Source of the DNA: Plumapathes pennacea
Lineage: Eukaryota > Cnidaria > Anthozoa > Antipatharia > Myriopathidae
NCBI GenBank assembly: GCA_964036295.1
Contig: OZ038463.1
Location: 14,468,069 to 14,532,068, forward strand
Length of the DNA stretch: 64,000 nt
Direction of reading: 5' to 3'
Part shown: in pieces, positions 4,640 to 64,000 of the stretch
How positions within the stretch are numbered: the stretch's first letter is position 1
How the letters are laid out: each line of letters starts with the position of its first letter
Notes under the pieces: generated by a model
The model's input: the letters and a program-made list of their open reading frames with translations, nothing else
Told to the model about the DNA's origin: nothing
The model's database searches: none
Translations under genes and position numbers: made by a program

Positions 4640-5785
4640 GATAACGCATAAATCGCTCAATTCTTTCCAGTGTACATATTTTCAAATACTGGAAAAAGAG
4701 GAAGGGGCCTAAGATACCAGAATAAACAAGGTTGGTAAAATGTACCTTACGGTCTGATATTTTACTATAATTTTTACTTCATTTTGGTAAAAATCGCACA
4801 AAAGAGATAGTTTTCACCAAAAATCAACATTCTGTGATATTCCCGTTACATTTGTAAAACATCTAGGCATGTTAAAAACATTCAGTTTTTTTTATGAAGA
4901 ATCTGATTTTTCAAAGCTAAATATTTCAGCCACGTTCCTGTACAAGGGTAACCCTAGCTCTCAGCTAGCATAACACTCTCACTAGTTTTGTTATAGAGCT
5001 GGGGTAGCCCTAATATCAGGGTAACCCTACTTAGATTACTGAACTTCAAATGAATTGACTGCAACCAATATTTTGACCTTCTGCTTGACATACCGTACAG
5101 GAATTTGCCGGAGATCTGCGACAATTTGTTCCCAGCATTAAAGTCTGAAATCCAAATTGCCTAGATTTTATTCACGCAAAACGCAAAAAAACGGCCATCC
5201 ACGAAATTAAACTTGCGCGAAAATTTCGTGCCACAAAGTATTGCCGTTTTACACTAGTGAAAACAAAACCAAAAAAATGGACAGCGTAATTGAAAAAGTC
5301 TGAGTTCATTGAAAGAGAGTAATTTTGCTTACGCGTGGACACTTGTTTGCAATTTGAAAACACAAATACTTCGTGCTCAGATTTTCATTGTCAACAACGT
5401 GATAGACCTGAATATCTGAGTAAATAAAAAGACTGATGTGTGCGTATGAAAGTTTGCTTCCATGACGCACTTGACGTGAAACTAGTTGCACCTGATTGGT
5501 CAAATTGACCATTTGAATTGGTTTTTACCATTAAAAAATGGGTCATATTTTTAACTAAAAATAAATAGGTAGATATGACCAATAACAGATAGGTTAATCT
5601 AACCTGCGCATATGGGTTATAGAATTTTTAAACCTTTTAAATACAGGTTATAATTTTTACCATTATGTTCCTTGAAAAAGTGTAAAGGAAAACACCCATC
5701 TTGCGGGTTCATGTGTTTAGTGAATACCGGCTTATAACTTTCTAAGCAATTTACTATTGCCATCGGATTCCCTCTTTTCAGCTCC
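4640..5785. other. Intergenic, no gene seen
   Basis: AT-rich sequence. Short minus-strand frames (5172-5582) overlap each other in different frames and resemble no protein. A region near 4945-5030 has repeated ggtaaccct/agctctagc words like those near 35085, probably remnants of an inverted-repeat element. Confidence 0.4.
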
Positions 5786-5787
5786 AT

Positions 5788-6700
5788 GAAATATTGAAGA
5801 TCTATTCTAACGGACACTCGATAGGAGATTTTCTGGCGGAAAGAAGACAGCGGGTCGTAGTCAATGGCCACTCGTCTGGCTGGTTAGGAGTGACATCCGG
5901 GGTACCACATGGCAGTATTTTGGGTCCTCTCCTATTCCTGGTCTACATCAATGACCTACCAGCAAGTGTGACCTGTGATTGCGATCTCTTTGCTGACGAC
6001 AGTGTCCTGCATAAAATTATCTTGGGTGAATCTGATGCCGACCGGCTACAAAGCGACTTATCCAGTGTCCGTGAATGGTGTGAAGACTGGTTACACTTAA
6101 GAAATAAAAATGCAGAGTTCTCCACATTTCGAAAAAGAAGGAACAAGTGTCTCGTCAGTATCATCTTGACAACCAAGCCCTATCAATAGTTCAAAAGCAC
6201 AAACATCTTGGTCTTTGGCTACAGTTATTTTTATCCAGGGGCTACCATATCAGCACCATTTGTGCTAAGGCTAATCGGATACTTGCATTAATCCGGAGGA
6301 GCTTCGGTCACAAGAACCCGTCTGCTGTTAAGACTGCGCCCTGGTTAGACCGTTTGTGGAGTATGCCTGCCAAGTTTGGAACCCTTACCTGGCTAAAAAC
6401 ATTCATGCGATTGAATCAGTTCAGCGGCGTGCGACAAGAATTATTTGCGGTTCCGAAAAGCCTCATACAGACCGGCTCAAAGAACTTAACTGGATAACGT
6501 TGGAGCTGCGAAGGAGATACCTGTGCCTTGTTCAACTGTATGAAATTATTTTCAACTATTGCGACATTGAATATGCCAATTATCTTGATCTTATTGGATC
6601 GACAAGAAGTTTGAAGGTTGTGATCGCATGTTATATATAAAAGCTTGGAGTAAATAAAATTCTGCTAGTTTTGTGTTGGAAATTGCTTATCAGAAGAAGA
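5788..6700 (+). mobile_element. Decayed non-LTR retrotransposon (CR1/Jockey-like LINE), 3' end
   Basis: Successive plus-strand frames read as the C-terminal half of a LINE reverse transcriptase. The first (about 5794-6130) has the GVPHGSILGPLLFLVYINDLP block (usually GVPQGS) and the catalytic FADDS motif. The next (about 6147-6340) has the region after the palm. The last (about 6345-6560) has the thumb/C-terminal stretch FVEYACQVWNP followed by SVQRRATRIICG. At least two frameshifts and a Q-to-H change show that it is inactive. A 3' segment (gatcgcatgttatatataa and following), ending in AAG-rich sequence near 6695-6710, recurs at 57753-57860 before a longer (AAG)n tail. This suggests a shared LINE 3' end. 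The 5' part is missing. Confidence 0.88.
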
Positions 6701-7831: not shown

Positions 7832-9078
7832 ATGACTATGCCAATGGACGCTGTATTTGGCTGTGAATTTTCTGACGAGGTGGATGTAAACCTCCAATGC
7901 CAGATTTGGTAAGATGAGTGGAAATCAAACACTTTTAGAGCTGTGCTTCATTCGCAATTGTGCCGCACCGCTATAAAACAATGCTATTTGTCAGGAACGG
8001 TTTCAGCTTACGATTGCTTTAAAATCCGTGAGTTTGCGTCTTTATTAACACTGTCAAATCTCTAACGTTGCAGTTTGAGCGTCATGTTAAAGCCAGTGAG
8101 TTTAACGTGTGGTCATTCTGGATGCAAAACCTGCCTGGAACAGCTGGCGGTAGGAGTTGGAGAAGGCGCAAGGGTTAAGAAATGTCCAGTGTGCCGAGTT
8201 GAAATACTTCGCCAGCCATCCGTCAATGTTTCCTTGAACCATATGACCAGAAAACTACGCATGCAATGTGCTAGTGTTGGCTGCGAGTGGAGAGGGGCAT
8301 TGGAAGGAGCGGAAGGGCACCAAAGCGAATGCGGGAAGCGTGTGGTCAATTGCAAGAACGACGGGTGTCGACATACCACGCAACGAGAGGAAATGGCCCA
8401 ACATGAACGCACCTGTCCCAAATCAAGGACGACTTGCCAAAAGTGCGGGAAGACCATCACACTGGAAGAAATGCAGCTTCATGAGTCAGACATGTGTGCC
8501 TTCGTAGTGAAAGAGTGCCCGCTTGGATGTGGTGAGCGCTTTCCCCGGTACGTATACATATAATATAATTGTATAGTTATCTCTTTTCTTGTCAATCCTC
8601 TAACTGTGCCAAACCAGTTATATTGATGATCAGACTGATGAGCAAAAAAACTTGATGAAAGTATATAATTTACTACTCAAACACGTTACTATGATTCAAA
8701 TGATACTGTGCATTGGTAGGCCGTGAAAGAAGTGGGCTTGTGATAAAAGTACTATGACACAATCAAGTCATTCTTTTGCACAAAACGCTAACGCCTGTTA
8801 AATTATTCTTATTTTTATATACTCCTAGCCGCGAGCGCTGGCGTTTTACCTCGATCTTTTACTCAAAGCTTGTATTGCATATTGTGTTTCCCCACAGTTG
8901 CAATCTTCACCTACACCAACACTGCTGCCAGTTAAAGGCTGTAGCTTGTGGAGTAAAAGGGTGCAAGGCTATAATGCGACGGGGACAGCGTTCATCGCAC
9001 GCACTTGAAGCTGCCCTAAGCCATCAGCAGATGCAAGCGTGTGAAATTCAGAGACTACGTCGACTAATCAAAGAAAAG
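7832..9078 (+). CDS. RING-finger/TRAF-type zinc-finger protein (three exons seen, 3' end missing)
   Basis: Three exons join in phase: 7832-7908, 8074-8547 and 8898-9078, all with GT-AG introns. Exon 1 ends within a Cys codon that exon 2 completes. This gives a RING finger starting CQIC at the junction and continuing through TCGHSGCKTC and CPVC. Two TRAF-type zinc fingers follow (ASVGCEWRGALEGAEGH, then CPLGCGERFPR into exon 3 with ACGVKGCKAIMRR). Exon 3 ends as a likely coiled coil begins (QQMQACEIQRLRRLIKEK). The family acts as E3 ubiquitin ligases/adaptors in receptor and innate-immune signalling. A MATH/TRAF-C domain is absent. After the last donor (9079) I find no clear further exon before the Merlin transposon. 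The gene is therefore truncated, continues in an exon I missed, or splices into the gene starting near 12.4 kb. Three Met codons (7832, 7838, 7844) could serve as start. Confidence 0.87.
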
Positions 9079-10084: not shown

Positions 10085-11154
10085 CTAGGCCAAAGGGTAA
10101 TAATGTGACAGAAGTCGAATGATATTGTCAAAGTCATTTCCAAGTCCCCTCCAATCTCTCCACATCTGTTCATTCAGGAATGCTTGAAGGCCGTATCTTC
10201 TTATTCCTTTCTCCCTCTTGATGTAGTATTTCAGTCTGTTCCATGCTGCTTCGGCTTCTTGAGTGTGAACTCCTCGTAACGGATCCACGAAATTATCCCT
10301 ATGCACCACGACCTGGTGCAGTATTAAATTGGGAACGTGTGCTACGATGTTTCTATAACCAGGCCAGTCGTCAGAATGCAACTCCGATCCTGGCAGGAGA
10401 ACTCGCTGTAGTATCGGTGCTAGTGTTGCCCTGTCCCTGCGCTGCACAACCTGAAAGTATCCTCGGCATGGAGTGTTCTCAGTGCTTAGGACCCCAAACA
10501 CCCACTGGTCATGTCTTGGCCGCCGTCCTCTCTGGTACTGAAAAGGAATGGATAAAGCGGGTTTTTGATTGTTAAAAAAAAAAAATTAGAAGCAATTGTT
10601 GCCATATTTCCATACAACAGTAACCTTTCCTTGACGAGGTCCACTTAGCGCAGATTAGGTGTTCGCTTCCGTGTTTGAGTTTTACCAGAAAATAATAATC
10701 CCTACAGAGTAATACCAAGCTACCACATTACACTGGAACGTAGAATGCCTTAAAACTGGAATTTAACGGTATTAGTCCCGTTGATTGAAGCCGAAGCTGA
10801 AAAAAAGCTAAAAAATAGTTATACCTTTGCTTTGTGGTTGAACTGGCTTTCGTCGCATTTAACGACGCATAAAGGTCCCCCAAACGGCACGATTGGCCGT
10901 TCTTCGAGATCCATCCCGCAGTAGTGTCTCAGCAACGCATAGACGTTGCCAACGCTGTTCTTCGATATGCCCACCATACGTGCGGCCGTTGTGCGCAATT
11001 CACGTTCGCTCCAGAGGTATAATAAAGTGAGAAGCTTCCCTAAGGGGGTTTTAGGGAACTCCTCAAAAAAACTGCCGGCCCGTAGTGACTTTTTGCTACG
11101 ACATCCCGGACATCTCCTGTATTTAATTAAATAGACAAATAACATGTACGGCAC
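10085..11154 (-). mobile_element. Merlin/ISXO2-like DDE transposase (two exons)
   Basis: On the minus strand, exon 1 (about 11154-10825) and exon 2 (10537-10085) join in phase 0 across a GT-AG intron (donor AAAG|gtat, acceptor ttttcag). Exon 1 has CPGCRSKKSLRAGSFFE, a helix-turn-helix-like stretch (ARMVGISKNSVGNVYALLR) and the first catalytic Asp in VVKCDESQFNHKAK. Exon 2 continues YQRGRRPRHDQW. It supplies the second Asp (SDDWPGYRNI) and the catalytic Glu (GVHTQEAEAAWNRLK), then ends IIRLLSHYYPLA and stop. This is the IS1595/ISXO2 fold of eukaryotic Merlin cut-and-paste transposons. All three catalytic residues appear intact. The N-terminal zinc ribbon looks incomplete and no convincing terminal inverted repeats were found, so the copy may not be autonomous. 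Confidence 0.85.
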
Positions 11155-20200: not shown

Positions 20201-23200
20201 CAAAGACCTAAGACCTAAGACCTAAGACCTCGAAAACGAAGACCTCGAAAACGAAGACCTCGAAAACAAAGACCTAAGACCTAAGACCTAAGACCTAAGA
20301 CCTAAGACCTAAGACCTCGAAAACGAAGACCTCGAAAACGAAGACCTCGAAAACGAAGACCTCGAAAACAAAGACCTCGAAAACAAAGACCTCGAAAACG
20401 AAGACCCCCGAAAATATGCTCAGCGAAACGCTTGATTCGCCTCGGAATTGCTTTTATCGGAAGCTGTTGTGTGACAACAAAATGGGAGGGGGGGAGGGGG
20501 GGCCGGGTATTTCCCGCCACAATGTGCGTCCGCGGCAGCTTTTCCCGCCCAAAATCGCGGGCAGCAGTTTGTTTACCAAACGTTCAATTAGCTGAAGTAT
20601 GCCGGATTGCGATCAATCACTGCGATCGCTCAGAAAAGTGTTCAGAGACCGCTGGATTGCTACGATCACTGTGATTGCTGAAAAACTGTTCCGAGATCGT
20701 AGTGATTATTGGAAACAGCATGCCGCGAATGGAAAAGCTGAAATGTTTTAAAAATGGCGACTGGTGACACGCACGGTCAGTTTTGTAAAACTTGGTGCTG
20801 TAGTTTAATTGCAAATTCTATGCTGAAGTTAGAAGAAAGGATGAACAAGTCTTGCAATTGAGTGGTATTAAAACAGTTCCTGCTTTGCTGGACAGAGTTT
20901 TCTTGTCCGTTCTTGAACAACCGTATTTATGCGCCACGATTCGCGACATCTCTTTCAAAGCTCCATTAAATTCCCAAAACAAATCCTGAACTCACTTTGC
21001 AGGATGGTTTACTCACAAGGCTACACAGTTTGTTTTGAACAACTTGGTCGATTGCCGGGGCTGATCAGAGGGAGCTAGAACCGATCGCAAGTAGCATCGA
21101 ACCTTGCTTCACTAAGCGTGCGTATCGAGTGATTGTGCGGCTAAATTCAACAAAACACATCTTTATAATCCAAAAACGCAAGAGGTACAAAGTGCCGAGG
21201 GTTACCAATAAGTTTGTTCAGAAGAATGACCTTTCTCGAAGTAAGAACCGATTGAACAGCTTCGATATTTCAACAACTTCGAGGCAAAACGGTCAGCTAC
21301 TCTCATCCAGTATGCCGTTTTCAGCTTGTCTGCCATACTGTTGTCTTTTAGACGTGGCTTGCATCGTTACATTGGAAAAACGCAAGAAGTACATATGGAC
21401 AGCTACTGATTTTGTGTCAATATTTTCGGTATCCTTGTATTATAAGAGAATCCGGTTGAACAGCTTGCTATTTAGTCTCTAGTTCAAAGGTATGATTGTT
21501 TAGTTTACACTGAAAGCCAAATAAATTGCAGCCCCTAATGCGCATGCATGTCCGCTATTTCTGGCCATGATAAGCAAGACGCAGTGTGTTGTCTGCGTTA
21601 CATTAATGGAAAATAATTCTATTATCTGTATTTGAAGATATTGTACATTTTGAAGAACAAATAGAGGTCCGTAATTATCCGTAATCGCTGAGCATATTTT
21701 CGAGCTCGAAAACTAAGACCCTTTGGAATCATTGCCAAACGTCTAAAAATACTGCATTGTTTGAAGTGTCACACCGTCTAAAAATACCGCATTGTTTGAA
21801 GTGTCACACAACCAGCTTCCGGTAAAAACAATTCCGAGGCGAATCGAGTGTTTCGCTGAGCATAATTTTTCGAGGTCTTTGTTTTCGAGGTCTTCGTTTT
21901 CGAGGTCTTCGTTTTCGAGGTCTTAGGTCTTAGGTCTTAGGTCTTTGTTTTCGAGACACCCTCGCCAAACGTCTAAAAATACCGCATTGTTTGAAGTGTC
22001 ACACAACCAGCTTCCGGTAAAAACAATTCCGAGGCGAATCGAGCGTTTCGCTGAGCATATTTTTGGGGGTCTTCGTTTTCGAGGTCTTCGTTTTCGAGGT
22101 CTTAGGTCTTAGGTCTTAGGTCTTAGGTCTTAGGTCTTAGGTCTTAGGTCTTAGGTCTTTGTTTTCGAGACACCCTGGTAAGTTAGGTGTCTGCTTAGAG
22201 AGAGTTGACTGTTTTTCCAATTACTGCTACATGTACCTTACAGTTAGAAGAAACACATTATAACATGGTGATCACAGCCATAACTTACATAACATTATGG
22301 TGTCACTTCACATTAGTTCAATGCATTGTCCAGATCTAGAATTTAGGCAATGCACAATTAAATAATTCAATATGATTACCACGAAAGCTTGTGAATGATG
22401 TGAATGATGCTATGTGCACTTTCTTAGTTATGTTGGCAAGCGAGGGAGGATGGGGCTGCTATGGTACTGGTGGTCATAGGATCAGCTACCAATATCGAAC
22501 AGAGGCACCACATCTTAAGGTACAGTACAGAACTGCACCTGTCATTGAACAGTCACATACATTATTAATGACATGAAACTTTTATAGTGTAGTATAGATC
22601 TGATTTGTCTACATATATAAAGTGAAATACACATACATGTAAATGCTGTATATCATTGTCTTAATTAACCATCAAACTAGTGGTTGTGTCTGTTATTTGG
22701 TAGTGGTACTACCACAAAAACAAACAAATTCTCTTTTTATTCTGCAGGATATTAAGAGGAATATTATGTAAAATACAATTGACCACATGCAAGTGGTATT
22801 TCTGGCTCTCCTGGGGAAGTTCAAGAAATGGCCAGCAAGGTAAAGTTCTAAAGTATGAATGTATCATATTGAATGAATGCAAGAGTATTGTGAGGTTATG
22901 TGTGCACTTGTATACTGTGTATGATCTCTCACTATAAACTTTTAATTTTGACAGTGATTGAACGTTATGGAGGGAACAGCCAAGAGGGGCAAGTGCTCCT
23001 ACTGGCACCATCTTTTGGTGGACAACCAGTATTTATAGACAGGATATCAGGTAAAGGATAAAGTGCTACTTGCCCTAAATTTTCATCCATTGCTACATGT
23101 CACACTGCTAAGTGTGACACCATCACATACTGTTAAAGATTCTGTACTGTAGCTGTCTTGGATTTAATCCTGAGTATGTGCCTTTCATTGACCAGGCCAA

Positions 23201-32882: not shown

Positions 32883-33250
32883 CGCAATAACCGCCAATGT
32901 CTGGTCACTGGCACAAACAAGGTTCTGTTCGTAGAGGTTCGTCTTATTTGCCTTTAGCAGCAGAAAAAGTAATATATGGAAACTGATCTGGGTAAAAATC
33001 TGATCAGTATCTAAATAGTAAAGCGCCGAAGGTGCGTCCAGGAGCATGTCCCCCGTAAAAATGAGATTTTGCTGTCCAAAACGCCATTTCCTACCATTTC
33101 TGGGAGCTTGAAACGAAATTTCAAAAAAAATCTGACCGGTTTCCGTAAACCGGTGTGAACCGGTGGCTGCGGCCACAGTACTGTCTGAAAGTCACTTTTG
33201 TGAGGAAGCCTTCCCGGTTGAAAATGTTTTTATTACATTATTACACTCAC

Positions 33251-34976
33251 CTTGTCCTCGTCGTGTTCTTTAAAAGTTTTCCAGTTGGAATCGTTGTTGC
33301 TGAACTTGATCTTGTAAGATGTTAGCCACTGGTCCTTATTATAGCGCCCTTGTGTGGCTACTTTTGTCACGATCTTTGTCTCTCCCAAGTCGACCTGCAG
33401 CCATTCTCCTGCGACACTTGGCCTAGCAGCCCAACATCCTTGTCTGGCCGGGTTATTTAAGCGTCCATGGAACGCCTCGTGGCCAAAGCTATATTCGGAT
33501 GAAGCGGTTAAGGCTGCATCCAATAACAGTCCGTTCTCCATCCCAAAAGCTGTGCTACACGCTGTGACGAGAAAAGAAGAATATGTCATACTTTGTGATG
33601 ATTCGAGGGCAATGAGATCAGTGTTGCAGTGCCATTTTGCTATTGCCTTGTGATATCGTTGAAGTCCTTATCTGTGATGATCTAGAGGAACAGTCATACT
33701 TGATAATCCATTTCATTGGTCTAAACAAATTCTCTTCTTAACTAAGACCTAAAATCCTAAGCATTGATTAGTAACATGTTTTCTTCTGTAACAACGAGTA
33801 GTCAGCGCTAACTAAGAAAAAAACTGTACCAATGAACAAGAACCACTGCTTCTGTTAATTATTTCAATCTGAATGTTTGACTGTGTCCTGTTTTAATAAT
33901 TGTTTCCGTTTAGTCACTAATCAATACTTGAAACTGTGATACTACTAGTCAAATAACTGAATAACAAGCCGGCTGAAGTAGCTGTTGCGCTACAATCAAA
34001 TTACACTAACTTTCGCTTCTTACCTGAGCTTCTCTTAATTATTTCAATCTGAATGTTTGACTGTGTCCTGTGCGAGAAGTGGACCCCGCGAGAACAGTCG
34101 AGTGGCGCAAGGGAATATTTCAGGTTTTTGCTCGTATTTCTCGAGATCTTCACAGAAGTGGTAAGTACTGTTAAGTAAGTCATCCTGTTTTAATAATTGT
34201 TTCCGCTTAGTCACTAATCAATACTTTAAACTGCTAGAGTAACGGCCATACTTGATAATCCATTTCATTGGTCTAAACAAACTCTCTCCTTAAGGGGGCA
34301 GTCCTGTAAAACTAAGACCGAAAGTCCTAAACATTGAACAAGAACTATTGCTTCTGTTGATATTCTAATCTGAATGTTTGACTGTGTCCTGTGCGAGAAG
34401 TGGACCCCGCGAGAACAGCCGAGTGGCGCAAGGGAATATTTCAGGTTTTTGCTCGTATTTCTCGAGATCTTTACAGAAGTGGTAAGTGCTGTAAGCTTAG
34501 TCATCCTGTTATGATAAAACGAAGTAACAAGCCTGAAGTTCATATGCCGTTGCGCTATAATCAAATTCCACTAACTTGCGGTTACCTGAGCAGATGGGCC
34601 GTCCTTTAGTCACGTGACACACCTTCATCTTGTTGCACAACACGTCACTGCACGCCACGTAGTCACGTGTCGGGTTATCTTCGTAAATCACGTGATTAAC
34701 CAACTTGAGGTGAAGAGGATGAGAGAGCCTCGTTCGTGCGTTGAGTTCACAACGCTTTTGGTTGAGATGGTAGTTGATGCTGTAGCAGTGCAAGTTTTTG
34801 ACGCACTGATCCATGCAGTCGTCAGCGTCGTAGCATTGCTCAGATGAAATCACGTGACCGACAAGTTGACGATTGAAAAAGCGATTGGTTCTGCTTCTGC
34901 ACTGGGACGAGGCGGAATATAATACGTTATCGGCGACTAACAGGAATACGATAATGATGCCAGCTGAGTCCTTCAT
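33251..34976 (-). CDS. Secreted PAN/Apple plus discoidin (F5/8 type C) protein, 3' end not found
   Basis: Exon 1 (34976-34586) starts MKDSAGIIIVFLLVADNVL, a signal peptide, followed by a PAN/Apple-like domain with paired cysteines (SSEQCYDADDCMDQCVKNLH). It ends PIC-S at donor TCAG|gtaacc, phase 1. Exon 2 (33561-33251) starts after ctcgtcacag, restores phase, and encodes the first two thirds of an F5/8C domain (GCWAARPSVAGEWLQVDLGE and TKVATQGRYNKDQWLTSYKI). It ends at donor AAG|gtgagt. Such cnidarian proteins are extracellular adhesion or carbohydrate-binding molecules. The terminal exon with the last discoidin strands and Cys is not visible downstream, where a 22-bp array and tandem duplications lie. 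The gene may be truncated by these or have a distant exon. The intron holds duplicated sequence (33700-34510). Confidence 0.83.
33690..34510. repeat. Duplicated segments in the PAN/discoidin intron
   Basis: Two copies of gcgagaagtggaccccgcga to cagaagtggtaagt (about 34070-34165 and 34392-34490), and two copies of acttgataatccatttcatt (about 33697 and 34252). Open frames on both strands through the unit do not continue beyond it. Confidence 0.8.
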
Positions 34977-34984
34977 ATTGCTGT

Positions 34985-36250
34985 GACCTGTGACAAAAGT
35001 CCGATGAGAAGGTCTAAATTTACATGCTATCTACCATTTACACATTGTGTAAGGGCCTGTTTACAAAGAGATAGGGTTACCTTAGCGCTAGGGTTACTCT
35101 GGTATCAAGTTTATCCTAGCGCTTTAAACAAGGACCCTCGCTATAAAAGGGATAGCTCCTCCCCCTTTCCCGTGACGTCAGCACAATTTTGAAAAATAAA
35201 ATGGCGGATATGAGTGAGCAGCAAACCAAATATACATATTTCGGTAAAACTCTCCCTTTATCAAGAGAATATTTAAGATAATATTCAATGGTGGACAATT
35301 GTTGTGAATAAAGTAGTCTGTTGCGTTTATTTACTTGCTTTTGGACGATTTTGGCTGTTTTTTGACGAACGTTTGAATTTCGCGCTTGTAAACCGTCACT
35401 GTCAACCTCGGCCCACCATTACTTTGCCACAGTCTCTCCTCTCCTTGTCTTTTGAGCCTGCAGAGCAGCTGAACGCGATCTTTCTCATCCTAGCATGCTC
35501 TGTGAGGGTTATTATTATACACTGCTCCATTGATGGCGGAAGTTGAACAATTGTCGTTGTTGTCTTCCACCTTCAATTGAGCGGTTTCTCGCGCGCACGC
35601 GATCGCTTAGCTTTCCAATTTTTGCGTAGCTGGTTATCATGGATCATTCGTGTACCAAAAAGCCAAAATTAACGACCTCCCGAGCTCCTCGACTGCGATT
35701 TTACCATCCAATTAGAAGTGGAATCCCGTATGGAGGATCGCCTCAAAGGATTGAAGACGCGTATTCAACATGCGAAGAATGCGCTTTCGATAACTGGCCG
35801 AACGCCACTGGGAAACGTTAGGATGTTGGAACGGCTTTTAGATTCTTTTGAGCAGCAAGAGCGGGGACATTTGTCTAGTCGTCGTGTTCCTTCCTTCGGC
35901 CAACGGAAGAGTTGATGCGTTCACACTAACCGAGATTTGCCCTCCTTAGCGGCAGGTAACGAGAAACACTTTCTTTATTCTGTGTAAATGTTGTGTCTAT
36001 CGCTGTAATCAAAAACCGTGCAAGGACCTTTGATCCTGCGGATATCTGGTTGAGCCAAAGACCCGTTGGTCTAGGCGGGAAATTCGCATTGCGCTCGTAC
36101 TCATATTGTCGATTTCATTTCTTTACGTGTTATCCTAAACCTAAATTAAAATAGTAGTACAATTGACATTCCTAATAAATACTCTCGAGCTCAAAGTAAT
36201 AAAATAAAATTTCAGAAAGTATTGTGTATAATGTGTTTAGTTATACGCTT
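34985..36250. other. Upstream flank of the PAN/discoidin gene; doubtful short frames
   Basis: Near 35639-35915, two overlapping plus frames look partly protein-like (MEDRLKGLKTRIQHAKNALS, then RMLERLLDSFEQQERGH), perhaps a gag-like fragment with a frameshift. I cannot name the family. The remainder (including tagcgctagggtta words at about 35070-35130) looks like repeat remnants. A (TC)n run is at 36257-36278. Confidence 0.3.
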
Positions 36251-52522: not shown

Positions 52523-53623
52523 TTTATAAAATAACTATGATACTACGCGCGCTCTGATTGGTAAAAAACCATTTTATAAATAAGTACAAAGACATGGAAA
52601 TGACGAATCCTGAAATAAAAAGACTGCGTGTCGTCCCCTACTTCAAAGATTCATGTGTTACAGAAACTGCAGTGGGCTATTAGAGCAAATAGTAAAGCCG
52701 TGTGCAAATCATGTGCAATTAGTGAAGCAGCGTGAAGAAAAGTTGTCCGAATATTGCATGAAATTTAATTCGGAAACCGTGAGACAGAAAGCCAACAATT
52801 ACACAGTCAAAGAACATTCTCTAAAGTTTCTAACCTTTATACCTTCGTCTCCTGTGGCTCGTAGCTAGTAACTAGATGGCTTAGATCACCGGAGTTTCAC
52901 ACGAATAATTGTAGGTTTATGGTGATGAAGGCACAAACAGTCTTCGCTAATGAGTCTGTCTCGGCTGTCGGCTCGGTGGCACAAAAGCTGTTGAGTCAAT
53001 TCAATGGAGTTGACTGTCGTCCGGCAGAGTTCAAGTAATGCTCAAGTAAAGCAAACAAATGTACCTTCTTCAGCAGAATAGTGTTGTTGTGCAGACATGT
53101 TTACGTCGAGTGACACCGTTGTCCTGAAAGTTGAAACCTGACGGCTCAAAACATTCTCGCCGGTTCTTTTGAATTCTTGACAAACAGTGGTACTAATATC
53201 CGACACATTTCTTGCGAAATTCATCTTCATTTAGCAGCCTGTCAAGTTTTTCAAGTGAACGGGAGTGGTGTTCCGTTTTCATTCATGGACTGACTTAAGC
53301 GAAGTGCCGTGAAACAGACTTTCCGATTGGACGAGCGTGCGTTTTGACGGTTTTCGGGAGAATCTTGAACTTTATCATTTTCAATATAAAGTTCTTTCAG
53401 GTAATAAAAGCTTCGTTATTTTATAAAAGCAATATGACACTCGTTTCCATGTCTATGTACTCTTATATAAACACTTGGGATGTTGTGAGAACACTCGAAA
53501 AAGTTCAAAATCACTCGCCGAAGCGGCTCGTGATTTTGAACTTTTTCTCGTGTTCTCCCAACATCCCGCGTGTTTATATAAGAGTACATAGACATGGAAA
53601 CTCGTGTTATATTGCTTAAATAT
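52523..53623. mobile_element. 1.1-kb repeat family, copy 3
   Basis: Same 71-codon frame and terminal hairpin (about 53437-53608). Inserted at the end of the second 243-bp unit after acactgaaacat. Confidence 0.9.
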
Positions 53624-53691
53624 GAATTTCGTTAAAATCACAAGAGCGACCGCGGCCGTAAGCACAAGTGACTCATCAGCGTGGTTTGTCC

Positions 53692-55190
53692 TAGAGTCCG
53701 CGTACACTAAGCTATAAAAAACGGCTCAACTTATAATAGGCTTGGGGATACAAATCGGTCCCAAATGTCAGAGTAATAAAGTTCAGTTTTATACCTAAAT
53801 TGTTGCCACTGGTTTTCGGCAGCCCCTTGAGAGAGAATAAGATTATTCTTAGATTTACAATTAAGTTCGCCCTAAACGCAGCGCAAGCGAGTGCCAATTT
53901 AATGTTAAAGTGTTGCAGATCTTTCAATACAAAGCAAGTCTTCAATATTAAAAATGATAATCTCTTCAATATGGTGTTTTCTCGCATTGCTGATTGAGTC
54001 TCTCCTTCAAAGTGAAATCTAACGCAAATTTGTTTGGCTTCTGGTTGTGTTCGGTGCTGTAGTTAATTACACGTTGGTTTTAAAGGGGCCCTCTCACCCA
54101 CAATCTTTTGCGCGCCAAAATCCTTGATGCGCCATTTTTTGGTCCCCCGAAAGTCGAAAGATGAATAGCAATCCACTTCCATCCGACTCGTTTGAGCAGG
54201 ATATTTAGTTTTTTTTTTTACCTAAAAGTGCTACTTGCTTATTTTTCTTTCAATTTAGTACGTTGTTTCGTGTTGGAAACCAAATTTAGCCAGATTTTTA
54301 AAATACATTTCTAGATGTAAACCGAAACATTGAGTTGGCTGAGAGGGCCCCTTAGGGAAGTCACCCTAAAACCACATCAAACTTTGAACAACGAATGGAG
54401 CAAGAATGTGACAGTTTGTTGTCGCATAGAGTCCGCGTCTATATAGCTCTAAAAAACGGTTTAACTTAGCGCTCTTCGGGATACAAATCGGTCCCAAATG
54501 TCAAAGTAAAACTACACAGTTTTATCGGTGTCTTACCTGAATTGTTGCCACTGGTTTTCGGCAGCCCTTCTATAGAATAAGATTATTCTTAGATTTATAA
54601 TTAAGTTCACCCTAAACACAGCACAGGCGGGTGCCAATTTAATATTACAGTGATGCAGATCTTTCAATACAAAGCATGTCTTCAATATTAAAATGATTTT
54701 CTTCTCAACATGGTGTTTTCTCACACTTCTCATTGAATCTTTTCTTCAAAATAAAACCTAACGCAAGTTTGTTTGGCTTCTGGTTGTGACCGGTGCTGTA
54801 GTTAATTACACGTTGGTTTTAATTGGGCCGTATCACCCACTGTCCTTTGCGCGTTGAAGTCCTTGATCCATCTTTTTCAGGGTTCCCGAAAGTCTTCCGC
54901 CATTTCTACCCGACTCGTTTGAGCAGGATATTAGTATTTTTTTCTTACCTAAAAGTGCTACTTGCCTATTTTTCGTTTGATTTATTACATTGTTTTGTAT
55001 TGAAAACCAAAATTAGCCAGATTTTTAAATACATTTCTTGATGTATGCAGAAACATTGAATTGGCTGAGAAGGCCCCTTAGGGATGTCATCCCCAAACCA
55101 CATCGAACTTTGAACAACGAACAAAGCCAGAATGTGACAGTTTGTCGTATAGAGTCCACTTCCACTAGCTATAAAAGCGGTTGAATTTAG
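53692..55190. repeat. Tandem array, about 730-bp units (two plus a start)
   Basis: The junction tagagtccgc..gctataaaa-acgg recurs at about 53692, 54427 and 55150. Units share gatacaaatcggtcccaaat, ttgccactggttttcggcag and a ggcc-ctctcaccca block. No coding capacity recognised. Confidence 0.88.
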
Positions 55191-55197
55191 AAGTGCC

Positions 55198-55650
55198 ACA
55201 AGTGTGGTACTATGACGTCACAAATGTAGTGCAGCTTTCATAACGTCACAGTACAAAAATGCAATCCATTTGACCTGACTGGTTCTCCTGGTTCTCCTGT
55301 ATAATATTAAAAAAGAAAGCTACAAAATGAATAAAACATGCATATGTATACAGTTTCTTAAGCCAATCACCGTTTATAAGGTACGAGACCTGGAATAAAA
55401 AGCCCATAGGTCTTTGCGTGCGTCATACCTTGGTAAAATGCGCTGGCCAGGAATAGCACTGTACACAGTTGTCAGCAGTTTTCGTGACTAACAGTCCGCT
55501 CTCCATCCCAAAAGCTGTGCTAGAAACTGTGACGAGAAAAGAAAAATGTCATACTTTGTGATGATTCGGGTGCGATGAGATCAGTGTTGCAGTGCCATTT
55601 TCTATTGCCTTGTGATGTCGTTGAAGTCCTTATCTGTGATGCTTAAAACC
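55198..55650. pseudogene. Chimeric duplicate including a fragment of discoidin exon 2
   Basis: 55198-55485 matches 30795-31086. 55486-55650 matches 33524-33680, i.e. the first codons of the PAN/discoidin exon 2, its acceptor and some intron. The 2.4 kb between these segments at the first locus is absent here. Only about a dozen codons of exon remain, so this copy cannot encode the domain. Confidence 0.8.
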
Positions 55651-56690
55651 TGAGCCACTTAAACTGTTGCCTCTCGACTCTTTCAAACCGAGGCCTTAAG
55701 TGCACAACCTTTGTTATGTAAGTAAAATGATTTTATTAGCATAAAAATGAAAACGAATTTTCATAAAAGCTTTCGCACTAGACCTTGTTTTGAAATAGAG
55801 GCAACAGGCATCTCGGAAATTTGGCCTACTCAATAAGGCTGTAGTAATAGGAGCCTCTGAAATATTTTTGCCAACCGTTGAACAAAAAGACTCTCACTTT
55901 TAACTACCAAGATCTGTGGTCAGGGTCTTAGCTTGCTTTACACATGCTAACTTTCGACCTTCTCTTTTACCTTGACTTTTTTTTCATCATAAATAATTGA
56001 AGACATTCAGCTAAAAACGAGCAGTGTGACAATTTCATATCTGTCTTTAAAATCTCAATTTGATACTTGTGTGATCTTGTAGTGATCTATGTCATTTTGA
56101 TCAGAAACACACACATAAAATGTCAATAACGACAAAATAGAAGAGCAGAATTTCGCGTTTTACTATTTATGTGTTCATTTATGGAGCCCCCAAATTAAAA
56201 GCTTTTCTTGAGCAACACTTGGTCCCTCGCTGCGCCCCTGCTGGTTTACACATTAAATATAGATAACGCTAAAGTGTCCTCAAAAAGCTAAACAATGAAA
56301 TGTTCTCACAGAGAATATAGCATTGTGGATGAGCGACTCGTGTACTTTGCACCTAAAGTTACGAAACTTTTATCGAAGGCGGAATATTTTAGCTGTGACG
56401 TGTAGAGTCAAATTTCTCCCAGTGCAGCCGAACTATTTTAATTTCTGTGGAGTAGCCAGTGCCCACAGTCACACCGTTACACCGACAAAACTTGAAAAAA
56501 AAATTACACTCACACCGATAACATTTGACAAAATTAAACGTGGGCCGAGATTTCTTTTTCTTTTTACTATTGACTTTCCCTGAAATGACGCTGAAGTGTC
56601 GTCAAGAGAAATTTTGTCCGATGTCTTCCACATTTTGCCTCGATTGCACTTGTGGAAACGGCGTTTTGTCACCCACGAATTTGTCAATGA
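55651..56690. other. No gene seen; one duplicated box
   Basis: 56303-56352 (ctcacagagaatatagcatt, then gagcgactcgtgta) matches 46153-46205. Otherwise AT-rich with no supportable exon. Confidence 0.4.
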
Positions 56691-57030
56691 GTTGCTACTA
56701 AAAAAAAACTTCGAAAATATAAAAAAAGAATTGTCTTCGTTTCGCGGCTATGGGCACGTACGTACACAGAAATAGAACCATGAGCGTGTGTATGAACACT
56801 GGTGTTTTCAATATTTTAAGCATACATGTAGAAGTCTTTATGTGACGTATCTCTTAATTTTTAGGATTGAGCGAGCAACCACTCTTGGGGGAGTTGGTTC
56901 ACTGAATAAAGTTCATTGCGCCGTTGTTTGGCACACGCTATCGGCTATTTCATTCAGCTTAGAACATTGAGATATATTTAGGCATTTGGTTTGTTGAATG
57001 AACGGAGACGAGTACTTCTTGGGGCCTTGT
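56691..57030. repeat. Second copy of 44150-44590 segment
   Basis: Ends at gacgagtacttcttggggcc, where the two copies diverge abruptly. Confidence 0.75.
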
Positions 57031-57750
57031 TTTATGTTTGCTGAAATATCTAATGCGATATAATAAATTTATTATATGGCTGGAGCTACTTCCGGTGAAA
57101 TCGCGCGCTCTGATTGGTGTATTTGCCGGTCATTATTTTCCTGTAACGCCCGTGTGCTCGATTACGGACCGCCAGATTGAACATATGAATCACAAGGTCG
57201 CGCAGTTCTTTGCTTTCAGTGAATATGTCGGCTACGTTTGGCTGAAGGCAAAGCGGAAGAACAAGAATATGTAAGAAAAAACTACCACCGCGGAAACTAA
57301 TTTGCAAGCCGAGAAAACGGTTGGAGATGAAGATTTGTTGACTTGGTTTGTGGCATCACGAACGGCGACTCAAGCACCGTATTCTGAGAATTGGTTCACA
57401 TCTTGCACTACGTGCTAAACACTTAGGCAACGTAGAAGGCACAGCAAACTTCAGTCAAAGAGTGACGTGAACAATTTCAATGAACCGTTTGCGGAGCTAC
57501 GAGCAGACTGATTATTTGTTGTCACGGTGCCGCAAGCGGAGTTCATACAAGCTTACTGAAACTGTAAGTATGGCATTTTAAGAGTGTGAACGCCGTTTCA
57601 TTTCAACATCTTTGAAGACTTGAGTGGAGGAACTTATCTTTCTGTTAAGAAAACGATAAACTTTTGATTCACACAATTTTCTGTGCCGACGGTTGAGATA
57701 CAAGATATTGTAGTTTCTTCAATATTTCCTTTGTTTGAATCCCGGAGTTT
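57031..57750. other. No gene recognised
   Basis: A plus frame at 57038-57274 contains cgcgctctgattggtgtatt, a repeat-edge word seen at the 1.1-kb family start. It has no domain. Confidence 0.35.
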
Positions 57751-57864
57751 GAATGTTGTGATCGCATGTTATATATAAACGCTTGGAGCAAATAACATTT
57801 TGTGTTGGAAATCGCTTATCAGAAGAAAAAGAAGAAGAAGAAGAAGAAGAAGAAGAAGAAGCCA
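57751..57864 (+). mobile_element. LINE 3' end fragment with (AAG)n tail
   Basis: gttgtgatcgcatgttatat to cgcttatcagaag repeats 6617-6700 of the decayed LINE, then about 12 AAG triplets. A severely 5'-truncated insertion. Confidence 0.8.
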
Positions 57865-57869
57865 TTTCC

Positions 57870-58654
57870 ATTTCCAACGGATTTTAATCTTAAGACTCGT
57901 ACAAGTCAAATTGACCCATCGACCCAAAGTCAAATCACTGCAGGGCAGATCGTGTATAGAAATCCGTGCTATCCGTCAGATTCGTGAAACTTAAAAGGAA
58001 AGTCATACTGATATCCAAGTCTTGACGGTAGCTGGGATTTGTGCGTGTTGATGTATTTACTGGAGAAATAAAACGAAAAAAAAAAATCCGTACTATCCGT
58101 GAGATCCGTTATACTTCAAGTGAAAGTAACCTTCATTTCAGATTGTAGCTTGTCCATGTATTCACTCAAGGAAGGATATTATTCTTTTTTCAGCCTTGAC
58201 GGGCAGTACGGGTTTATTTATGTAAATGTCATAACTCAAGGAAAGATGCTCTTGCTCTCACGGATTCTACAGACAAGACGGATTTCTGTATGTAAATGTC
58301 TTAACTCCAGGAAAGATGCTCTTGTTCTGACGGATTCGACGGACAAGACGGATTTCTGTATGTAAATGTCTTAACTCCAGGAAAGATGCTCTTGTTCTGA
58401 CGGATTCGACGGACAAGACGGATTTCTGTATGTAAATGTCTTAACTCCAGGAAAGATGCTCTTGTTCTGACGGATTCGACGGACAAGACGGATTTCTGTA
58501 TGTAAATGTCTTAACTCCAGGAAAGATGCTCTTGCTCTGACGGATTTGACGGAAAGGACGGATTTCTGTATGTTAATGCTCAATTAGTTCAACGATGTAT
58601 TAATTTTAATTAATTCAATTAATTAATTAATTAATTAAATTGACATTCATGTTA

Positions 58655-58689
<35 letters not shown>

Positions 58690-59330
58690 ATTAAGAACAA
58701 AATATAATTAATATAACAATTGATATTACTACATAGAGAAATTAATTATTTAAGTTATTAGCATACAGAAATCCGTCCTTTCCGTCGAATCGGTTTGAGC
58801 GAGAGCATCTTTCCTTGAGTGAAGACATTTACATACCGAAATCCGTCCTTTCCGTCAAATCCGTTTGAGCCAGAGCATCTTTCCTTGAATGAAGACATTT
58901 ACATACAGAAATCCGTCCTTTCCGTCGAATCCGTTTGAGCCAGAGCGTCTTTCCTTGAGTGAAGACATTTACATACAGAAATCCGTCTTGTCCGTCAAAT
59001 CCGTTAGTCTGGGAAAAGTATAAAATCCTTCAAGCTACAATCTGAAATGGGAGGTGACTCTTTTTGAAAGTATAACGGATCTGACGGATATAGCACGATT
59101 CTTTGTTCTCATTTTTTTCAATGAATACATCAACAGCAGCAATCCAAGCTATCCGTCAAGACTTGGAGATTAATGTGACATTCCTTCTAAATTTCACGGA
59201 CCTGACGGATAGCACGGATTTCTATACATGATCTGGCGAATTCGCTTGAAGTGAACAGGTCAATTTGACTTGTACGAGTCTTAAAGTGAAATCCGTTGAG
59301 CTGAAATTGGAAATGGAAGGTGTACTTTAC
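57870..59330. repeat. Giant imperfect palindrome with 70-bp tandem units in both arms
   Basis: Left arm: five 70-bp units (about 58241-58590, each with gaaagatgctcttg, then gacggacaagacggatttct). Right arm: about four inverted units (58755-58990). Outer segments also pair, for example actcgtacaagtcaaattga (57896) with 59265-59285 and cgtgctatccgtcagat (57967) with 59195-59215. The centre is taattaat and (TA)n at about 58610-58690. Confidence 0.88.
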
Positions 59331-59339
59331 TCAAAGTAT

Positions 59340-59965
59340 AACGGATCCCACGGATAACACAGATTTGTTTACACTTCATTTCTTTAGTGAAAACATTAAC
59401 GTGCAGAAATCTCACCTATCCGTCAAGATCAGGGTAACATTTCTTCAGGTTTACGGTTCTGACGGATGGTACGGATTTCTATACACTTAAGGTGGGCACT
59501 TAAGTTTTAGAGTGAAATCCGCCGAACTGCAAGTCATTGCCAGAATTTTTAGACATTCGGTTGCCTCAGGTTAAAATTGATTCAGATTTCAAGCCGAAAG
59601 CGCGTCAAAAATAACAAATTGTAATACGCAGACTTCAGGTGCTGCTATTTTAAGCTAGGAAGCTCCAAATCGCAAGAACATTGCAGCGAACGAAAGCTTC
59701 TTTCAACTGGGTCGTTCTGCTGTACATGTATATAAAAGAAACATTCCTTCCCTCCCCCCCTCCCCCCCACCGTGAGGCTAAGAAAATGTTAGATAAATAA
59801 ACGACGCGTGCTCATACTGTAAGCCGCTGGAAAATACCGAAAACAACGAGGACTCAAAATATCTGAAGTGTCTGAAATGTCACACAACAAAGACTAATGT
59901 AATGATCACAAGAGTCATTAGAGTTCAAAGCAAGAAATGCGTGAACTGCTATTGAATATGCAAAA
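59340..59965. other. Palindrome periphery and upstream flank of the SF3 gene
   Basis: Further gacggat-type words up to about 59520. A C-rich run lies near 59752-59770. No gene. Confidence 0.4.
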
Positions 59966-59971
59966 GGTAAG

Positions 59972-60063
59972 TATAAAAAGCGAAGCACAGGAGCAATTCG
60001 TCCTCATTTGGCTGTGGTAATGGACGCGTTCACTTGAACTTGGGACACGCTGAACAAGAAACT
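59972..60063 (+). promoter_or_regulatory. TATA-box promoter and non-coding first exon of the SF3 gene
   Basis: tataaaaag at 59972-59980 is followed about 30 bp later by a plausible start region (gagcaattcgtcctc). At 60061 comes a strong donor (ACT|gtaagtacc, exon end 60063). An acceptor-like ttacaatcag at 60546-60555 precedes the ATG at 60568, giving a 5'-UTR intron. The first ATG in the leader (60020) stops after five codons. All of this is inferred from consensus signals. Confidence 0.5.
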
Positions 60064-60567
60064 GTAAGTACCTTAAGTTAATTTGCATTCATTACTGCCG
60101 ACGAATTTACTTTAAACAACTGTAAGTGCTTCTCAATATCGGAATCTGCTCGGACCATCGAAATCGGAACGGAACTCCGATTGCGGAGCATCGGAAAATT
60201 TCGCCTTTTCTCTTTTATTATCTGAGTAGTGTTTTTTGCGCCGGCTCTTGCGTGACTCGGCTTTCGTCGGACTGCTTCCGGCGAAAGACGAATTAGTCAC
60301 TACGATCCAAATTAATATGTTCCGATTTTCATGCAAACAATACCAATTGAATTGGACGGACCCGATATACAAATTGCGGTAAATTGGTCGGACCCGATTC
60401 GATTTTAAAAGCGTTTCCTCTTTTTTTTTCTTTTTTGGAAAGACTTGTCGCTTTCGACTCTGTTCGATTTTTTTCTCCATTTTCTAAACGTCTCTCTACA
60501 AGATACACAATGTAAAAGTACCTTACAGCTCTCTTTACAATCAGGTGACATCGATAACAAGAAGAGC

Positions 60568-63430
60568 ATGGCAACGGCCCGACATCCTGCTCGACAGTTA
60601 AATAGCAAGGCCATTAAAGACGTTATACTGTCGTACATGGTCCCCGTCGTCCAGGATACATTCTACGTGGTCCACGCAAAGGTTACTTGGAGAGTAGAGA
60701 AAGATGCTGACGCTCTGAGAAAAGCTTGGAATCTTGTATGCGAAAAGAGAGAGGAGTGCGACGACGCTATTAAAGGACTCGGAAACCTGGCATTTTACTT
60801 TTCCGCCATATCATCGTGCGAAACCGCCTCGAAAGGCAAAGGAACTGGAAAAGGAAAAAGAGCGAGCTCCAACAGCAACTTGGAAGATGAAGAATCGGAG
60901 ATGTTATCACAAAGCCAACAACCAAGCAGCTATGGCTCATCGAGCTCCATCAATCTCGCGGTTGAAAAGGAGCGCTTCCCTGCGATATCATATTGGATGG
61001 CTTTTGCGTCACGAAATGGCGCTCCGATTTCTCTGGCGCCAATTCGCCGAAGACTCATTCATTGCGACGTCGAGGTTGATGTGAAGCCTATTTCCAACGG
61101 TCGTCAAAAGACGGGCATCGAGATGACAAAGTCTCTGTGTCAAGTCATGAAAGACCACAACTCAAGCTTCATGAAAGACGTTGTAGACAGCTCATTTGAA
61201 CATTGTCGTCGAGGAGCCATTATGCAATTGGGAGAAGACGCGCTAGTTTCAGAGGACGAGGAGGACCAACCTGACAGTGTGCTAAGGTTCTCTATGCTAA
61301 AGCCAACCACTTGCAGAAGAATTACGAAAGTACTGCGAGCGTTAACTCACGCTGGTCTAAAGATGGATCTCCACGGTATAGAGTTAACGGATTATGAAGC
61401 ACACGATAACGAGTCCACAAGAGTAAAATCCCTCACAACCGACCAGACAACGCAGCTAATCAACGATATTGAAATACTGATGGCGAAGCTTGGTTACGCA
61501 CTCCACAGAGGTATGATACACAAGAAGGAGGAAAAGGCAATGTACACCTACACGTACAAGTGTGACGTGAACAGCTTCATCGGGACGCTCGAAGGTAACG
61601 AGTCGCTGAAGGCGCGATTGTCAAAATATGGAAAGAGTGTGCGAGAAAAGTTGCAAAATGCGGAGACGCAGTTTATCAGGCAGTTGAAGGTGGGTCACGA
61701 CCTTATTGAGGTGAGCGATGGCTGGTGCCTGTGTTTGTCAAAGCGTCAGTTCGTCCAGCATGCAGTGAGCGAAGAAGAGATCGGGCACGTAAGCCCACGT
61801 GCGTTCTGCGAGTACAACCACGAAAAACAGCCAGATCCGAAATACTTTCGCGAAATCTTGGAGAACAGTCTCAACCGAGATGAAATTACCCAGTTTTGCA
61901 CCGACTACATAGGGCTGTTACAGTTCCAAAGCAAGCAACACAAACAGAAGGTAACAGAAACTTCTCTGTAAACTCGACTCTTTTTAACGCGGTTATTCAG
62001 GTCTACGTTCCGCATCTTTCCAATGTCTAGTAAATTGGCGTTTTGCCCTACTAAACGAACGGTTTTCGTGTTTTCTTTTTTAACAGGTACCATGTATTGT
62101 AGGCGCTGCCGATAGCGGAAAAACTAGCCTATTTGCCCCTATCTTTGGAATCATTCCACCCATTCGCGTCGCGACGGTTACCAAGCAGAGGGCCTTCAAT
62201 AAAGCGCTCATTAACGAGGACACAGAGGTCATCTTTGTGGACGAGGCGTCCACAACTTCAATGGACGTAGACGACTGGAAAATTCTGACGCAAGGAGGGT
62301 GGAACGTTCACACCGCCAAATACAGGAAGGCAAAACCGTTTGTAAACAGATGTCCAATGTTCATCACCTGTCAAAAGAGGCTAGCATTCTCCAACCCCGA
62401 AGACCAGAAGGCCATGGATGCGCGCTTAACCGTGTACCACTTCAAACAGTTGCCCAAAAAAGACCCGAGTGCATTTGAATGGTTGAAAAAGCATCCCCTT
62501 GACTGCATAGTCTGGGCTATGGGAATGGCCAGGGAGTCGGAAACAGCCGTGCATCAAGACAACGGTATGCAAGGCAAGTTGACAGATTCAGAGAAGGAAG
62601 CCCTGCTTCTGTTTAATTTTGACCAAGACGGGAGCGGTGACGAATGCCACGGGCAAGAGGATGCAGAGGGTGCAGAAGAGCAGGAGCTTTACAGCCAGAA
62701 CGAAAGTCTGAGGGACGCCCTGAGGGCGGAGCGCAATCCTTTTCGTAAGGGCGTCTACAGAAGGCTCGTGGAGAGGACGGCGGAGAGAAAGAGGGAAGAG
62801 GAGGAGGCAAATATGCGCATGATTGAAGGGAGGAGGTCCTTCCTACTAGAGATGGGAATTGAAGACGACCTCGCGGATCGCATGCCCGAAGATGCAAACG
62901 AGCCCTATCCGGATACCCTCAGGCGTGCCGTGGACAACTGCGTTGGCCGAAGGAGGAGGGCGGAGGAAGATGAGAAAAGAAGACATGCAGAAGAAGTGTT
63001 CAAGGAGTCCTGGCTGTTGGAGAAAGAGAAAGAGTTGGTACGGTTGTCAAACGAGCTGCAAACGTCCGGCGGTAAAATGGACCGCGACATGAAGGACGGG
63101 AAGGAGTATTGTTTGAAAGTTGTTGTGGCAGCAATAAAATCACACCACAAGTCCGCCAAAACGGACGCAGCCCACGGAATTTCAGTCAGACGAGAAACAT
63201 ACGTTAAGAACGGGTGGGCCACGAGAGCGCAAGCGGAAGCCAGCATTGTCAATTTGTGCGCTCCGCCGTGCCTGGCCGACGAGCGCCTTTCACAGTCCAA
63301 CCCGACGCAGATGACTCCGCCCACCAGCCAGGATGGAGACAAGGGCAGAAAGAGAGGTGCCACCCAGCAGCAGCAGCTGACCCCCAAGAGGCAGCGAAGC
63401 ATTTTCGACTTTGTTTCTAAGAGTCACTAG
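60568..63430 (+). CDS. SF3-type helicase/ATPase protein with C-terminal PIP-like motif
   Basis: Two exons, 60568-61950 and 62087-63430, join in phase 0 across a 136-bp GT-AG intron (about 908 residues). The frame is open 5' to 60445, but the first in-frame ATG is 60568. The N-terminal 460 residues are unknown, with a Gly/Lys and Ser-rich linker. Exon 2 opens with Walker A (GAADSGKTS), then Walker B (EVIFVDEAS), a sensor-like MFITCQK and an Arg-finger-like DARLTVYHF. This is the order in superfamily 3 helicases of the parvovirus NS1/papillomavirus E1 type. Those are replicative helicases; I see no HUH nickase motif. A charged coiled-coil region follows. The C-terminus has QRSIFDFV, close to a PCNA-interacting PIP box. 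The frame is intact, so it is recently active or under selection. It could be a viral-derived or transposon replication gene. Confidence 0.8.
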
Positions 63431-63528
63431 TGTGCAAAGATGGACTGCGTATCAGATTATTGTAAACGCGCAAGCGAGTGACATTTGAAACCATACCTTG
63501 TTTGTGTGCAATCGTCTTAATTTATTGC

Positions 63529-63534
63529 ATTAAA
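63529..63534 (+). terminator. Candidate poly-A signal ATTAAA
   Basis: ATTAAA 99 bp after the SF3 stop, followed by tgtttgtgg. Plausible cleavage region before the convergent Myb frame. Confidence 0.4.
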
Positions 63535-63634
63535 ACATTGTTTGTGGACCCATCACTAATTAGGGTGTTTGACATTTTTTACTCGACATTTACACTTGTC
63601 ACACTCGCGCATCACAACGCTTTCGGTTTAGTTA

Positions 63635-64000
63635 GACTTTACAAATTTTGACAAGGCTATTTTTTTGAGAAAGTCGGCAGTCCTTCCTGGTTGAAAACCA
63701 AAGTGCGGTTCGTCCAAAATACTCCGGCTTCCACATTCCAAAACCGTGTTTCCTTTTAGAACCCCAACATTACATAAGAATTTACTGTTGTTGTCGCATT
63801 ATATACTGGCTGTATGCCTCTGTCGGAAACACACAGACGCGGCTCTCTTTTTAATCGAGTCCGCAGTTCTACCCCTTTGAAAGTTCAACTTCGGATCCTC
63901 TAGAATGCATTTCCATCTTCCGAACCCATGCTTTACGAGACCCTTCTTCAGGCATTTGTCTTCATAACTAGTGAAACGCAAACTTCTCTTGCGGTGACAA
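63635..64000 (-). CDS. Myb/SANT-like repeats, convergent with the SF3 gene (partial, interrupted)
   Basis: On the minus strand from the right edge to about 63799 a frame reads RKRSLRFTSYEDKCLKKGLV, then GFGRWKCILEDP and NFQRGRTADSIKKRA, ending at a stop. It has the Myb/SANT spacing of an aromatic/acidic start, a central W and an RTADSIKKR third helix like telobox-type Myb domains. Downstream (about 63785-63640) a second, related repeat (SILDEPHFGFQPGRTADFLK) lies beyond the stop. That suggests tandem Myb repeats, the second degenerate or separately spliced. The N-terminus is outside the window. Family function is DNA binding. Its position tail-to-tail with the SF3 gene (about 210 bp) suggests a shared element, though this is inference. 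Confidence 0.6.

Follow-up and report, generated by a model that had tools for sequence, protein, structure and literature searches.

The window, a 64,000-nucleotide stretch of the Plumapathes pennacea genome (C2:14468069-14532068 in the 290 Mb and 24 contigs examined), contains on its plus strand a gene for a superfamily 3 (SF3) helicase, which lies within a repeated DNA element of about 9.4 kb. Exon 1 (60568-61950) encodes an N-terminal domain that is ferredoxin- or Rep-like, weakly at best, with an invariant KDH, and the region ahead of the ATPase. It is followed by a 136-bp gt..ag intron (61951-62086) and by exon 2 (62087-63430), which encodes Walker A and B, the B' loop, the sensor, the Arg finger, a charged helical tail and a PIP-like (PCNA-binding-like) C-terminus, QRSIFDFV. 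The initial annotation had called this two-exon gene intact, and the spliced exons do give 908 stop-free codons (a 908-aa protein). The splice junction is independently supported because the proteins of relatives continue uninterrupted across the exon boundary in an alignment of 19 sequences (A1) and because, within the same genome, 12 diverged loci have their exon-1-like and exon-2-like matches at most 4 bp apart and so lack the intron. The nearest relative, P0001 (71%), runs into what was judged by eye to be the same intron, and three of the copies described below (C, D and E) keep it at 99-100%.

Walker A (G467xxxSGKT), Walker B (VIFVDEA), the B' loop, the sensor region (ITCQ) and the Arg finger (R574) are conserved in A1 and lie in one AAA+ core, the combination that defines SF3 membership. 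The motifs named in the initial annotation were thus found again, with Gln in place of the sensor Asn in the window protein and in the A1 members from hexacorals; the Asn is present in P0102 and P0103. GxxxxGK[TS] is present in 206 of the 221 family proteins, fragments among them. As had also been noted earlier, a recognisable HUH motif is missing: no HxH is conserved in the N-terminus across A1, and fold comparison showed this domain to be weakly HUH-Rep-like at best. Its invariant residues in A1 are K195, D196, H197 and S209, and most members have Y or F at residue 210. The PCNA-binding-like motif forms the C-terminal end in 63 of 71 long family proteins. In octocoral-type relatives, for which 12 tails were inspected, a recurrent SYWT..K.W(RP)W stands where the others have the PIP-like motif.

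Tail to tail with the SF3 gene, on the minus strand, is a second gene of 664 aa (C2:14531870-14533861). Only its 3' part, the Myb end, is in the window (63799-64000), and the gene runs on to C2:14533861. The protein has a C2H2-like finger and a Myb domain; the latter scored 23.6 bits against a Pfam cut-off of 24.4 for the whole protein and 28.3 bits for the piece inside the window. This Myb domain resembles TRF, though no telomere repeats were found in the window. R299, K327, H394-P-T-R397, H424 and Y433 are invariant across 33 of 33 aligned second-gene proteins. They match the catalytic residues of tyrosine recombinases, which include a Lys and a further His. The R-H-R-Y tetrad is the one named for these enzymes (PMC3212892). 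All four recombinase patterns occurred in 116 of the 120 listed relatives (654 were found), a count to be read with the patterns having been derived from the alignment with which they are scored. None of the profile libraries searched recognised the recombinase core, and Pfam gave no Crypton/DUF3504 or phage integrase match at E<=1. Because profiles do not recognise the core, the call rests on motifs and element ends, and at the motif level the protein appears to be of the tyrosine-recombinase type.

The initial annotation had proposed counting copies and looking for common ends. The DNA at 59500-64000 has five full-length copies at 98-100% identity in the same genome: A (the window), B (C2:14328181), C (C8:4719753), D (C8:6048770) and E (C2:27937975). 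The flank of copy A is also found at copy B, a segmental duplicate. Copies A, C, D and E are four independent, near-identical insertions with shared limits and unrelated flanks. The limits place the element of the window at 57862-64000 on the plus strand, with its right end beyond the window at about C2:14535336, and the length among copies ranges from 9.2 to 9.5 kb. On the left, these four copies have AAG followed by CCATTTCC (the AAG of copy A is at 57859-57861, plus strand), and on the right [GA]TAAC followed by AAG, the last C being missing in copy A, which lies in a GAA tract. Every left end read, four of A type and three of B type, has AAG followed by [CT]CATTTC. A direct AAG repeat of 3 bp flanks copies C, D and E. 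The tandem repeat next to copy D has a single AAG in its uninterrupted unit and two at the filled site. The element ends showed no inverted match to each other. A left end at 57069 was ruled out as the boundary of another repeat, and the end was moved to 57862. The other repeat, of about 780 bp (57069-57857), is not part of the element; it hosts copy A in its (GAA)n tract and has 38 other long matches at 91-98%. Two of the three paralogous sites read (L037 and L039) connect window position 57068 to C2:14535662.

Both genes are open in copies A and C, copy B has one stop in exon 1, copy E has two stops in exon 2, and the second gene of copy D is split between frames. Element activity may be recent because the copies are nearly identical. 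The ratios of silent to changed codons, 4:1 (C), 5:11 (D) and 7:6 (E) for the second gene and 0:0 (C), 10:10 (D) and 10:18 with two stops (E) for exon 2, are too few for use in judging selection. The differences in exon 1, likewise too few for this, are almost all amino-acid changes. With copy D left out, copies A, C and E together have 12 amino-acid changes and zero silent ones in this exon (60568-61950; P 0.057 under neutrality). This may point to diversifying selection in the DNA-binding half of the protein, or be due to chance.

The two genes are associated well beyond these copies. Clustering by hand gave 27 SF3 loci and 26 second-gene loci in the genome. The second gene was found within 10 kb of 17 of the 27 SF3 loci, against 0.05 expected, and the pair was convergent in 17 of 17. 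The unpaired loci, ten SF3 and nine second-gene, include several short fragments. Over exon 1, identity to the SF3 protein of the window is only 33-50% at 11 of the 17 linked loci. At nine of these 11, the best recombinase match is 92-99% identical (81% and 78% at the other two). The three B-type left ends read are unlike the A type in sequence apart from the terminus, and right ends are common to both types. One B-type element starts exactly at the AAG that closes copy E, as expected of site-specific tandem integration. In another species, P0003 (SF3) and P0225 (second gene) are both on sequences of 15,684 bp, a hint of linkage that may be chance. Just upstream of the SF3 locus on C1, Polinton-type integrase pieces (rve below the cut-off, and a chromodomain) lie on the minus strand at L048:4685-5823 beside a 245-aa frame, in a nested or hybrid arrangement.

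Between the left end and the SF3 gene is a candidate replication origin (57946-59490), which consists of ACGGAT repeats, frequently spaced by 9 or 18 bp, in arrays mirrored around an AT-rich core (58579-58757) with up to 88% AT per 100 bp. Counting both strands, 57858-60567 has 34 ACGGAT, most of them within 57946-59490; plus-strand arrays lie ahead of the core and minus-strand arrays behind it, with spacings of 9, 18 and 70 bp. The best 6-mer reached at most 12 in 200 shuffles. In the B-type element beside copy E, ATGGCG occurs 11 times (at most 10 in shuffles), frequently at a spacing of 9 or 18 bp and in mirrored arrangement about an (AAT)n core, and an element at C2:17.96 Mb has 11 GTCGGAT, mostly mirrored round (TA)n, which in a blind test did not go beyond shuffles. 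In the part of the C1 element (L048) that was read, no comparable array was evident, just a short inverted pair of GGTAGACCGT repeats far upstream. A shared layout with different repeat words would fit an initiator that co-evolves with its sites.

The relatives of the SF3 protein point to anthozoans. Species names were available for 13 of 103 matches, all of them anthozoan (Actinostola, Oculina, Montipora, Nematostella, Desmophyllum and Paramuricea). A profile search added a second branch of 132 proteins; it is called octocoral-type here after the two species-named members among the 120 listed, from the octocorals Paramuricea and Dendronephthya. Oculina patagonica has seven different family proteins, which a quick tree of the 103 proteins scattered over several separate branches, as for an old multi-copy element and not an orthologous gene. 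The assignment to an NS1/E1 type in the initial annotation was too narrow. Pfam gave only a sub-threshold match of the window protein to Parvo_NS1 (PF01057; 14.2 against a cut-off of 20 bits), and at E<=0.1 the 19 A1 members matched PPV_E1_C in 10 cases and Parvo_NS1 in nine. SF3 helicases stood at the top of the fold lists for the model of the relative P0003: its best VIA match was the SaPI5 primase-helicase, followed by AAV Rep, B19 NS1, AsfvPrimPol, D5 and E1. Foldseek on a relative's model ranked poxvirus E5/D5 first. Besides the sub-threshold score and the missing HUH nickase motif, the window protein differs from parvovirus NS1 and papillomavirus E1 in its PIP-like tail, its intron and its recombinase partner. 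Scans of viral contigs with two peptide patterns found no SF3 relative, and neither did scans of prokaryotic contigs with the same number of patterns. A parvoviral reading of the family was rejected, as six PF01057 loci in the genome were at best marginally similar to it (tblastn, six queries, best E 5e-4). These loci (L001-L006) are endogenous and parvovirus-like, score over the Pfam cut-off and are distinct from the SF3 family. Three were inspected: L001 (C1) and L003 (C8) have NS1-like frames and a second frame that is VP-like by eye, and L005 has nothing NS1- or VP-like on the strand inspected.

Taken together, the SF3 gene probably encodes the initiator and helicase for the replication of an integrative DNA element that has two genes and occurs in anthozoans (sea anemones and corals). 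The defined ends, the near-identical insertions at unrelated sites, the convergent gene with recombinase residues and the iteron/AT-rich array can all be read directly from the DNA sequence. The best reading of them is a capsidless, integrative, self-replicating element that would excise and replicate as an episome. The recombinase, bound to DNA by its zinc finger and Myb domains, would excise the element as a circle and reinsert it at an AAG within a purine-rich sequence. The N-terminal domain of the SF3 protein would bind the mirrored iterons, the core would assemble as a hexamer and melt the AT-rich core, and the C-terminal PIP-like motif would recruit PCNA and host polymerases. Extra copies would then integrate, at times in tandem. 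One of the two origins suggested in the initial annotation, the replicase of an undescribed eukaryotic mobile element, is supported by the insertions, the linked recombinase-type gene, the defined ends and the origin-like array. The other, a domesticated viral gene, is not supported because the gene is multi-copy, mobile and divergent within one genome.

Alternatively, the element might be an endogenous DNA virus, or what is left of one (polinton-like, virophage-like or adomavirus/cressvirus-like), with its capsid genes lost or elsewhere. An SF3 helicase and a tyrosine recombinase are reported together in polinton-like viruses and virophages, E1-like Rep genes with capsid genes, some joined to repeats, are described from sea-anemone data (preprint PMC11071296), and the C1 element is adjoined by the Polinton-type rve/chromodomain integrase. 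We consider this rather unlikely, however, as the same limits recur in four independent insertions, the viral-contig scan found no relative, and the longer frames of the 9.4-kb A type beyond both genes are only antisense or in 86-bp tandem repeats (small frames were not profile-searched). Copy A has no frame able to hold a major capsid protein, with small frames not searched and B-type elements partly read. For want of room for a capsid gene in the copy read, the element was not grouped with polinton-like viruses.

The element might also be a recombinase transposon of Crypton-like kind, with the helicase as mere cargo and no self-replication. In favour of this, Cryptons are tyrosine recombinase transposons that lack inverted repeats, and they have been described from cnidarians. 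Against cargo are the linkage at 17 loci in fixed orientation, the helicase motifs kept over great divergence and the position of the helicase beside a mirrored iteron/AT-rich array, and this explanation seems improbable to us. We give hardly any credence to a domesticated host gene family that duplicates along with its chromosomal surroundings. For it are the open reading frame and splicing of the SF3 gene, the segmental duplication seen in copy B and the many SF3 copies of anthozoans, but the sharp common ends with unrelated flanks in A, C, D and E contradict it. Many SF3 loci are also divergent or disrupted, and the highly similar recombinase matches at nine of the 11 linked loci with divergent helicases are not what such a family would give. 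The initial annotation had termed the gene host-like and named a conserved single-copy host gene as the contrary case; the 27 hand-clustered loci and the seven Oculina patagonica proteins show that it is not one.

Several known systems resemble the element in part. With Cryptons, as described in PMC3212892, it shares a recombinase-type gene with R-H-R-Y, the absence of terminal inverted repeats and presence in cnidarians. According to the same source, fungal Cryptons have short direct repeats of 4-6 bp at their ends and animal Cryptons are described without a C-terminal domain or terminal repeats; its main text does not contain the word 'helicase'. The present element has an SF3 initiator, iterons, a zinc finger, a Myb domain and a 3-bp repeat, with no detectable profile match, and Crypton membership was not assigned despite similar recombination because profile homology was not found. 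Some polinton-like viruses and virophages share an SF3 (S3H) helicase and a tyrosine recombinase in an integrated eukaryotic element (PMC4642659, PMC12220804). They differ in their capsid and packaging genes, none of which is in the element copy read, and in their reported size of 14-40 kb (PMC12220804). The RepE1 'cressviruses' of the sea-anemone data likewise have an SF3 replicase of E1-like type, in part joined to repeats, but are reported with capsid genes (PMC11071296); they were compared by description, and their E1-like Rep genes may be kin of this SF3 family. In its way of working the element is likened to P4 and the SaPIs, including the SaPI layout of integrase and origin. These satellites are bacterial, hijack helper capsids and have primase activity (PMC7145576), and the homology shown to the element is confined to the SF3 core.

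In a wider sense, we lean slightly towards the view that anthozoans host capsidless, plasmid-like integrative replicons in which a tyrosine recombinase is joined to a dedicated SF3 initiator; this initiator would recognise an iteron origin of its own and dock on PCNA. Replication modules of the ACGGAT, ATGGCG and GTCGGAT types would be swapped under a common recombinase and right end, with several origin specificities per genome, as in bacterial satellites. We know of no autonomous DNA replicon in animals that is neither a virus nor a retroelement, and no title or abstract describing this element was found in the open-licence literature. If true, the element, a recombinase element with an initiator, an origin and a PCNA-docking tail, would be the equivalent in eukaryotes of plasmids that integrate and of P4/SaPI satellites. 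It would bear on the origin of small DNA virus replicases from plasmids and transposons, and it would offer an animal replication origin with defined candidate initiator sites that is directly testable.

Other repeats and domains were seen nearby. A 3.2-kb repeat with short inverted ends at L040:3481-6700 (C2:14537049-14540268) seems to be a very recently active transposon because it has at least 14 further full-length copies at about 100% identity. Within the window, a 1.1-kb repeat (52524-53624) has at least 29 matches at 98-100% and inverted arms (88%) at 53422-53520 and 53524-53622, and a local segmental repeat (53621-57069) recurs seven more times within C2:13.86-14.60 Mb, at 96-97%. Mirrored arrays of a 15-bp unit, AAGACCTCGAAAACG, lie about 1.5 kb apart at 20203-20406 and 21867-22159, like the ends of a fold-back element. 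Pfam also identified a TRAF/RING finger exon (8066-8560, plus), an IS1595/ISXO2-type transposase (10088-10585, minus), an F5/8C domain (33236-33667, minus) and a PAN domain (34512-35030, minus), and a reverse transcriptase piece (5746-6186, plus) scored just under the cut-off.
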